In this document: positions 5,978 to 9,439 of the stretch, piece after piece
Numbering within the stretch: the first letter of the stretch is position 1
How the letters are laid out: the number at the start of each line of letters is the position of its first letter
NCBI RefSeq assembly: GCF_900115815.1
Contig: NZ_FOXV01000002.1
Location: 1-64,000, forward strand
Reading direction: 5' to 3'
Length of the DNA: 64,000 nucleotides
Source: Roseivivax halotolerans
Lineage (GTDB): Bacteria > Pseudomonadota > Alphaproteobacteria > Rhodobacterales > Rhodobacteraceae
Translations under genes and position numbers: made by a program
The notes under the pieces: model-generated
Databases searched by the model: none
Seen by the model: only the letters and a program-made list of their open reading frames with translations
What the model was told of the DNA's origin: nothing

Positions 5978-7243
<1,266 letters not shown>

Positions 7244-7403
7244 CACAAACCTTTCTCGGCCGTTTTGAGCTTGGGGCGGTGGCGCTTGTGCCTCTCGGCC
7301 ACCCCGTTTCGCCAAGTCCCGGAAGATTAGGATAGCCTTGCCGGGCCTACAATCGCAAATTCGTCGCGGGGGCCCAGGATAGCCCCCCGCCGTTAAGCGG
7401 AGA

Positions 7404-8036
7404 TTAAGACTTGGCGTCTTCCAGCGCCGCGCGGCTCTGAACGATCTCGTCGATCAGGCCCCATTCCTTCGCGGATCCGGGCGACATGAAGTTGTCGCGC
7501 TCGAGCGCCTTTTCCACCGTCTCGTAATCCTGGCCGGTATGGTGGACGTAGATCTCGTTCAGACGCTTTTTCAGCTTCAGCGTCTCTTCGGCGTGGATCA
7601 TGATATCCGTCGCCTGGCCCTGGTAGCCGCCTGACGGCTGGTGCACCATGACGCGGCTGTTGGGCAGCGAGAAGCGCATGTCCTTCTCACCTGCGGTCAG
7701 CAGGAGCGAGCCCATCGAGGCCGCCTGGCCGATCACCAGCGTGGACACCGCCGGCTTGATGTACTGCATCGTGTCGTAGATCGACAGCCCCGAGGTAACG
7801 ACCCCGCCCGGGCTGTTGATATACATGGAGATCTCCTTGTTCGGGTTCTCCGCCTCGAGGTGCAGAAGCTGCGCCACGATCAGGCTCGACATACCGTCAT
7901 GCACCGGCCCCGAGAGGAAGATGATCCGTTCCTTCAGAAGGCGAGAGAAGATGTCATAGGCCCGCTCCCCGCGGCTGGTCTGTTCGACCACCATGGGAAC
8001 GAGTGTGTTCATGTATGTCTCGAAAGGATCGGTCAT
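7404..8036 (-). CDS. clpP: ATP-dependent Clp protease proteolytic subunit ClpP
   Basis: ClpP (210 aa) is the serine peptidase of the ClpXP complex. The catalytic triad is Ser107 in GQAASMGS, His132 in MVHQPSGG and Asp181 in ERDNFMS, with the same spacing as in E. coli ClpP. A short N-terminal propeptide region precedes [17 protein letters not shown] 8036 is chosen because the in-frame extension of 95 codons upstream does not resemble ClpP. The 182-nt spacer to the divergent photolyase-like gene should hold the clpP promoter. It probably forms an operon with clpX. Confidence 0.97.
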
Positions 8037-8218
8037 CGCGCCTGCCTCGGTCGGTGTTGGGAAATCCGGTCGGAAAACCTTGGTCGCAAGAGTCTTAGTG
8101 GTCGCCTCGGGGGGCTGCAAGGGGACGGCTTTGTCGAATTGTCGATGTCGCAGCCTTGGCGCGTTGAAGCTTCCCGCCCCGCCCCTACCCTTCCCGGCAG
8201 ACAAGCCAGGAGCCAGAA

Positions 8219-9439
8219 ATGACGACGCAGACGGCACTCGCCGCCTTCCCGCCGAGCCGCGAGGATGGCCTCGCACGCCTGAAAGACTTCGTGCCGCAGG
8301 CAGGCCGCGACTATGCGACACGGCGGAACTTCGACCTCGGGCAAGGCGCGCATGACAACGTCTCCTGCCTCTCGCCCTACTTGCGACACCGGCTCGTGAC
8401 CGAGGAAGAAGTCCTGAACGCCGTCCTTTCGAAGCATTCGCGCAGCGAAGCCGAAAAGTTCATTCAGGAGGTTTTCTGGCGCACCTATTTCAAGGGCTGG
8501 CTCGAGATGCGACCGCCGGTCTGGGGTGGATACTGGTCGGAGCTGACCTTTGCCTGGGATCAGGTGCAGACGCAGTCGGGCCTGCGCCGCGCCTGGGAAG
8601 AGGCCTGCCGCGGCGAGACGGGCATCGAGTGTTTCGACGCCTGGGCGCATGAGCTTGTCGAGACCGGCTACCTGCACAATCACGCCCGGATGTGGTTCGC
8701 CTCGATCTGGATCTTCACGCTGAACCTGCCCTGGGCCCTCGGCGCGGATTTCTTCCTGCGTCATCTCTGCGACGGCGATCCGGCGTCCAATACGCTCGGC
8801 TGGCGCTGGGTCGCGGGGCTGCAGACGCCGGGCAAGACCTATCTTGCCCGTGCCTCCAACATTCGCAAATACACCGAAGACCGCTTTCATCCCAAATGGC
8901 AGCTGGCCGGTGAGGCCCCCGCGGTCAACGGATCGGAGAACCCGGCGCCGATGGCCGCGCCAGATGGTGACAGGCTCGATCCTGCAAGCCCTTGTGTCTT
9001 CCTTTTGCACGAGGACGACCTCTCGCCCGGCTGGCTGTTCGATCTCGGCCTTGAGCCGGAGGCCAGCGCGACGCTCGATACGACCGGGCGAATGAGCATG
9101 CTGACCCCCGCCGAACATGTGAGCGCCTTCAAGAGCCGCGCTATCGCTGATGCCGTCGCGCGACATGAAGATCGGCTCGGCCCGGTGACATCTGGCCTTT
9201 CGGACGCGAAAGCGATCGTCGACTGGGCCCGCGACCACGGCGCGTCGCGCATCGTGACGTCCTATGCGCCGGTCGGCCCGACAGCCGATCTCTTGCGCGA
9301 GATCGAAGGCATCGAGGTTGTCCGCCCGCTCCGCGCTTTCGATGCCCGCGCATGGCCTTACGCTACGAAGGGGTTCTTCAAGTTCAAGGACAAGATCCCG
9401 GAACTCTTGGGCGAGTTGCGGGGGCTTCGCGTCGCCTGA
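8219..9439 (+). CDS. Photolyase/cryptochrome-like flavoprotein with reversed domain order
   Basis: A 406-aa protein whose N-terminal 235 residues match the helical FAD-binding domain of DNA photolyases and cryptochromes: [45 protein letters not shown], then [19 protein letters not shown] and [15 protein letters not shown]. Normally an alpha/beta domain of about 130 residues precedes this. Here the protein starts almost directly with the FAD domain, and an alpha/beta-like segment follows instead (about 258-406: [36 protein letters not shown]). The order therefore looks permuted. ATG 8219 has GGAG upstream. It may repair UV damage or sense light; the activity is not proven by sequence. Confidence 0.8.

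Follow-up and report, generated by a model that had tools for sequence, protein, structure and literature searches.

In canonical photolyases an alpha/beta antenna domain stands ahead of the domain that binds flavin adenine dinucleotide (FAD), and a gene near one end of a contig from Roseivivax halotolerans (NZ_FOXV01000002.1, assembly GCF_900115815.1) raised the question of whether the same enzyme can be built the other way round. The window that we analysed comprised positions 1 to 64,000 of this contig, and a sequence-only reading had proposed that the 406-residue product of the gene was a natural circular permutation of a photolyase and could define a distinct subgroup of altered function. 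We found that the inverted order was real and conserved: residues ~8-226 form the FAD domain, and an alpha/beta domain ends the protein (~255-406).

The first line of evidence came from profile and sequence searches. Pfam gave FAD_binding_7 at residues 81-217 (E 2.9e-22, covering profile positions 1-134 of 203) and no other family at E 1 or better in the whole protein; the N-terminal DNA_photolyase domain, PF00875, was not matched. In phmmer alignments, residues 12-244 corresponded to 207-452 of 1tez and residues 8-209 to 198-396 of 1dnp, i.e., in both cases to the second half of a canonical photolyase. From these Pfam and phmmer alignments, the FAD domain begins near residue 8, and no antenna domain precedes it. 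At the C-terminal end of the FAD-domain profile, ~70 positions remained unmatched, and the NCBIfam cut-offs of the canonical classes were not reached (at best 82.1 of 506 bits; 67.1 of 317 bits for DASH). The AlphaFold2 model obtained from a 78-row alignment (predicted local distance difference test, pLDDT, 97.0; predicted template-modelling score, pTM, 0.93) had two domains, with helices only up to residue 218, no regular secondary structure in residues 219-259, and alternating strands and helices in 260-400. A Foldseek comparison of this model with the PDB produced 35 matches at E 0.001 or better, and all 50 listed matches were photolyases or cryptochromes. Thus, the N-terminal FAD domain, the three motifs quoted in the sequence-only reading and a confident fold with the helical domain first and the alpha/beta domain last were all borne out.

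The relatives agreed with this picture. A single scan of bacterial and archaeal genomes returned at least 593 stretches, of which at least 574 were relatives. We retained the best 80, most of which were Rhodobacterales by their record titles. All 80 contained a single open reading frame (ORF) that aligned from query residue 1-17 to 393-406 with the order unchanged, which provided the homologues of common domain order that the earlier reading had named as a check. The arrangement is not due to chance, to a frameshift or to chimeric assembly, and a frameshifted or truncated canonical photolyase was ruled out by the full length kept in 80 of 80 relatives.

Proteins of this architecture were already in print. 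In the available text of PMC13274461 and PMC9426592, the NewPHL or short photolyase-like (SPL) class is described with "inverted domain topology", and members are named from D. shibae, M. mesophilicum, E. litoralis, and R. centenum. The same part of PMC9426592 defines Phr7 as an N-terminal FAD domain plus a C-terminal Z-domain without iron-sulfur (Fe-S) cysteines, and refers to a photolyase for cyclobutane pyrimidine dimers (CPDs) in single-stranded DNA reported in 2020 from D. shibae and M. mesophilicum; an SPL of S. elongatus is recorded in the available part of PMC9178010. The window protein shared with this class, as excerpted there, the N-terminal FAD domain, the short C-terminal Z-domain, the lack of Fe-S cysteines and a range of hosts that includes alphaproteobacteria, and no difference from the printed description was found. 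Moreover, D. shibae itself belongs to Rhodobacterales. The protein thus appeared to fit a known class, and the proposal of a new subgroup was not upheld. Together with the conserved CPD-site residues described below, the order of a FAD-type domain first and an alpha/beta domain last makes it very probably a NewPHL/SPL-class photolyase. It counted against this assignment that the membership rests on architecture, residues and a printed description, the protein having been set beside the class by description rather than by the sequence of a member; the characterised members A8LJA9 and M7YZC8 were not among the titles of the best 80 of at least 593 stretches in our single scan. The papers listed in a literature search for "circular permutation" of photolyases or cryptochromes dealt with optogenetic and related tools; this is no proof that the idea has never been published.

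Residue equivalents were taken from an alignment with the E. coli photolyase, and their conservation was counted over 78 sequences. E84, W87, N154, M158, N191, W195, and W197, whose E. coli counterparts are given in the table, were each found in 78/78, and W172 (W359 in E. coli) in 77/78. We take the roles of these CPD-site and electron-chain residues to be those of their E. coli equivalents. According to the available part of PMC12083526 (2025), conservation of the flavin-facing Asn extends to NewPHL. Two replacements spoke against a photolyase of the usual type. Namely, W306 of the Trp triad was T118 here (T in 57, S in 10, A in 4, and V in 3 of the 78 sequences), and R342 was H155 in every sequence, so that the full triad W382-W359-W306 with R342 was not found, its outer Trp being missing. 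Another outer electron donor may lie among the invariant W142, W159, and W164. Class I CPD photolyases (1owl, 1tez, 1dnp) share the FAD domain and the CPD-site residues with the window protein but have the antenna domain first, a complete FAD domain, and both W306 and R342.

The loss of one triad position and of R342 would also suit a cryptochrome-like photoreceptor that no longer repairs DNA and passes its signal to a partner, as would the greater variability of the C-domain (mean identity to the window protein 43.9%, vs 68.9% for the FAD domain, over 77 sequences), since sensor outputs can be variable. We regard such a receptor as very unlikely in view of the CPD-site residues, invariant in 78/78, and of the CPD repair by class members stated in the available text of PMC13274461 and PMC9426592. 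For the photolyase, the most likely function, by analogy, would be the light-dependent repair of CPDs in single-stranded DNA, the single-stranded substrate being suggested because it is the class members characterised in print that prefer it. The N-terminal domain would bind FAD, and the reduced flavin, excited by blue or UV-A light, would pass an electron to the dimer, held in a pocket whose lining includes E84, W87, and M158; splitting of the dimer would follow, and the electron would return. Flavin photoreduction would start via W195 and W172. The Z-domain, as a putative shortened relative of the canonical antenna domain sited where a canonical FAD domain would continue, probably closes the flavin pocket and would carry no antenna pigment.

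The descent of the Z-domain was addressed through its fold. Residues 255-406 were folded alone from 78 rows (pLDDT 94.1) and compared with the PDB by Foldseek. The first-ranked match was cryptochrome B (CryB, 3zxs) of R. sphaeroides, at E 1.7e-3 and a TM-score of 0.62 on the query. Photolyases and cryptochromes made up 14 of the 50 listed matches and had TM-scores of 0.46-0.67, and the other 36 did not exceed 0.45. The best-shaped PDB matches of the domain thus belonged to the photolyase family, although none reached E 0.001, and the refuting outcome named in the earlier reading, residues 258-406 aligning with no photolyase alpha/beta fold, was not observed. CryB represents the PF04244-type (FeS-BCP) proteins, which differ in their canonical order, PF04244 N-domain and Fe-S cluster (available text of PMC13274461); the profile of their alpha/beta domain did not match that of the window protein (probability 0.9).

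A bridge to the canonical domains was offered by another inverted form, Phr4/5/6, which according to the available part of PMC9426592 is encoded by two ORFs in some strains. It is known in print from marine Synechococcus and Cyanobium, and we found it on Deinococcus plasmids. Like the window protein, it has the FAD domain before the alpha/beta domain, but it differs in a Cys-rich stretch after the FAD core, in a C-domain nearer to PF00875 and in being split at times into two genes. A split inverted form with the FAD and alpha/beta parts in different frames was present in one alphaproteobacterial genome (G028; locus L126, 971-2763, minus strand), the only one of 61 genomes of its order with such a form. 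The C-domain of the L126 protein led to four Deinococcus plasmid records with Cys-containing inverted photolyases (L144 1604-2977, L145 1604-2974, L146 1616-3034, L147 1722-3013). Three of these plasmids encoded both domains in one ORF, and strain QL22 encoded them in two ORFs with a 4-base overlap. The second ORF of the split Deinococcus form was annotated merely as a hypothetical protein.

Three of five Phr5/6-type C-domains (P0003, P0004, P0007) matched PF00875 with E values from 0.00023 to 0.001, short of its cut-off; the C-domains of P0005 and L126 did not reach it at E 0.001. A profile of the five rows matched 10 of 398 Pseudomonadota genomes, namely G028 and, with 10 matches, nine others; five of these 10 matches were confirmed by their position ahead of a same-frame FAD domain or by a PF00875 match (G219, G399, G263, one of those in G422, and G012). 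Against the N-domains of 31 canonical proteins, the five-row profile gave a probability of 96 (E 4.9e-9, 132 columns). The NewPHL C-domain profile (89 rows) in turn matched the five-row profile more weakly, with a probability of 50 (E 1.6e-4, 100 columns), which was its best match among the four profiles tried. The score of this comparison was 32.5, and 100 column shuffles reached at most 19.7; the score against canonical domains was 22.9 (shuffles at most 19.9), and that against PF04244 domains, 18.0, did not stand out (1/100 shuffles as high). Column shuffles are a lenient control that destroys the strand-helix pattern as well.

A number of results weighed against kinship of the Z-domain with the antenna domain. 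No Foldseek match of the isolated domain reached E 0.001, and ranks 2-7 were not photolyases but proteins of other kinds (universal stress proteins, prenyltransferase, methyltransferase). The aligned part of the photolyases found would be the antenna domain, the output giving no aligned target ranges. Direct sequence searches (Pfam, PDB, hhalign) found no convincing homologue: the window C-domain matched 0 Pfam families at E 10, the C-domains of 78 relatives touched PF00875 once (E 0.036, among 22 scattered families), the PDB profile search gave four chance-level matches, and hhalign against canonical N-domains was weak, with probabilities of 4.8 and 6.1 in two comparisons. Additionally, the Z profile scored 21.7 against universal stress proteins (shuffles at most 16.6; 0/100 as high), so the shuffles alone fail to single out photolyases. 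These universal stress protein matches, one of them at Foldseek rank 2, and the lack of direct sequence homology with canonical antenna domains would agree with a HUP/universal-stress-like domain that was recruited independently as a lid, with no evolutionary inversion of domains. Canonical N-domains and Phr5/6-type C-domains also matched universal stress proteins (probabilities 60 and 37), which makes the latter superfamily relatives rather than a clean negative control. Independent recruitment seems rather unlikely to us because the top TM-scores belonged to the 14 photolyase-family matches, because Phr5/6-type C-domains, behind a related FAD domain, match canonical N-domains, and because the Z-domain matches these C-domains best. 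We favour the view that the Z-domain is an antenna-type domain that was relocated and shortened. Common descent of the Z-domain and the canonical antenna domain, via the fold and the Phr5/6 bridge, is the better reading, although not proof.

The FAD domains were compared in a tree of 68 rows that included 27 NewPHL, five Phr4/6 and two canonical-order sets. Before the tree was built, 6/18 rows of the first NewPHL set, 13/31 canonical rows and 15/25 rows from PF04244 loci were dropped; four of these 25 were neighbouring canonical photolyases. The program warned that the bootstrap was unsettled, that the composition of five rows was odd, that one row (L241) was very long, and that long branches met. 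The 27 NewPHL rows formed one group (97/99), a shared branch (100/99) united the two canonical-order sets with PF00875, and the five Phr4/6 rows grouped weakly (69/21). The free tree placed NewPHL with the canonical sets (91/62), and a tree held to join NewPHL with Phr4/6 was better by 7.67 log units (approximately unbiased test, p-AU 0.678). The second canonical-order set consisted of eight rows, L234-L241. These represented a second canonical-order photolyase or cryptochrome type in several alphaproteobacteria; PF00875 preceded FAD_binding_7 in both rows checked against Pfam, and the five checked passed no NCBIfam cut-off.

The identical domain order and the joint clade, not rejected by the test, would allow the window protein to be a Phr6-type inverted photolyase with an Fe-S cluster. 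Such an identity is highly improbable, since the NewPHL rows group on their own and the Cys-rich stretch that follows the FAD core of the Deinococcus proteins was absent when the translation was read against them. Nor was the circular permutation proposed earlier a clean one, given the ~70 unmatched FAD-profile positions and the existence of two-gene relatives, and the junction likeness claimed for [20 protein letters not shown] had been judged by eye only, the profile alignment of the C-domain ending before it. Since relatives carry the halves as neighbouring genes, the inversion is explained equally well by a split that was followed by fusion in the reverse order. Tentatively, NewPHL and Phr4/5/6 may go back to one ancient change of domain order by splitting and re-fusion instead of a duplication-based permutation; split Phr4 and Phr5 pairs would then be a living intermediate. 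On this view the Z-domain would have started out as an antenna domain and would now serve as a lid, in place of the FAD-domain end that was lost.

With respect to distribution, 141 of 299 Pseudomonadota genomes had a match at E 0.001 or better, and only 12 had a full-length match below 1e-100, namely the genome of the window and others of its family and class (seven of the same family, five others of the same class). The C-terminal domain occurred in 90 of 196 genomes of the same order at E 1e-4. Stop codons lay within the C-domain match in three genomes (G525, G621, G542), and a Novosphingobium plasmid copy (L233) matched over the FAD half only; these could be short variants, pseudogenes or sequencing errors. 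Matches were present in 164 plasmid records, seven of which covered at least 80% of the query (Niveispirillum, Ruegeria, Peteryoungia, Novosphingobium, and three Asticcacaulis), and six of the seven were annotated "FAD-binding domain-containing protein". These full-length copies, on plasmids from other alphaproteobacteria, had the domains in the inverted order as well. Among the plasmid copies L230, L231, and L232, those of Ruegeria and Asticcacaulis were near an AarF/UbiB kinase gene, and those of Novosphingobium and Asticcacaulis near a DUF3429 gene. A search of viral contigs with the C-domain profile gave 68 stretches, none a relative, and the 10 phage records with a match covered 50% or less of the query.

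The neighbourhood of the gene was also conserved. In the window, clpX and clpP (5978-8219) were divergent to the NewPHL gene. A clpP match was found in 72 of the 80 loci, upstream and divergent in 70 and less than 600 bases from the start of the ORF in 58, and clpX was found in 71. A promoter region common to clpP/clpX and the NewPHL gene, or co-regulation, is possible. An ArsR-type gene downstream recurred in 1/80 loci and does not belong to the unit. The genome of the window also carries a canonical photolyase and a PF04244 protein. A DASH protein over the cut-off of the model was found in none of the 196 genomes of the order, and 1 of 14 control genomes passed. The abstract of Emmerich reportedly suggests that NewPHL can stand in for DASH, and the absence of DASH from the 196 genomes fits this suggestion.

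Table. Features of the inverted photolyase gene and its neighbour, in window positions
Feature	Positions	Strand	Basis or remark
Whole gene, NewPHL/SPL-type inverted photolyase (probable)	8219..9439	+	406 aa plus stop; ORF translation, relatives
AGGAG, likely ribosome-binding site	8208..8212	+	Sequence; six bases 5' of ATG
FAD-binding catalytic domain, residues 8-226	8240..8896	+	Pfam, phmmer, AlphaFold2 model
FAD_binding_7 match, residues 81-217	8459-8869	+	Pfam
QEVFW, residues 83-87	8465..8479	+	E84, W87 = E. coli E274, W277 (alignment); 78/78 sequences
HNHARM, residues 153-158	8675..8692	+	N154 = N341, H155 replaces R342, M158 = M345 (E. coli numbering)
NTLGWRW, residues 191-197	8789..8809	+	N191 = N378, W195 = W382, W197 = W384 (alignment)
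Linker, residues 227-254	8897..8980	+	Without regular secondary structure in the model
C-terminal alpha/beta domain (Z-domain), residues 255-406	8981..9436	+	Models of whole protein and isolated domain, Foldseek
[12 protein letters not shown], residues 378-389	9350..9385	+	Highest conservation within the C-terminal domain (alignment)
clpP, divergent neighbour (context only, outside the enzyme)	7404..8036	-	Clp protease match, E 3.6e-81

The gene thus adds one member to its class; new here are the evidence for kinship of the Z-domain and the antenna domain, incomplete but pointing in one direction, and the recurrent divergent arrangement with clpP. Inverted photolyases bear on the origin of the whole photolyase/cryptochrome superfamily, since SPL has been proposed as its possible ancestor in the available text of PMC9649867 and PMC9498864, citing Xu et al. 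2021.
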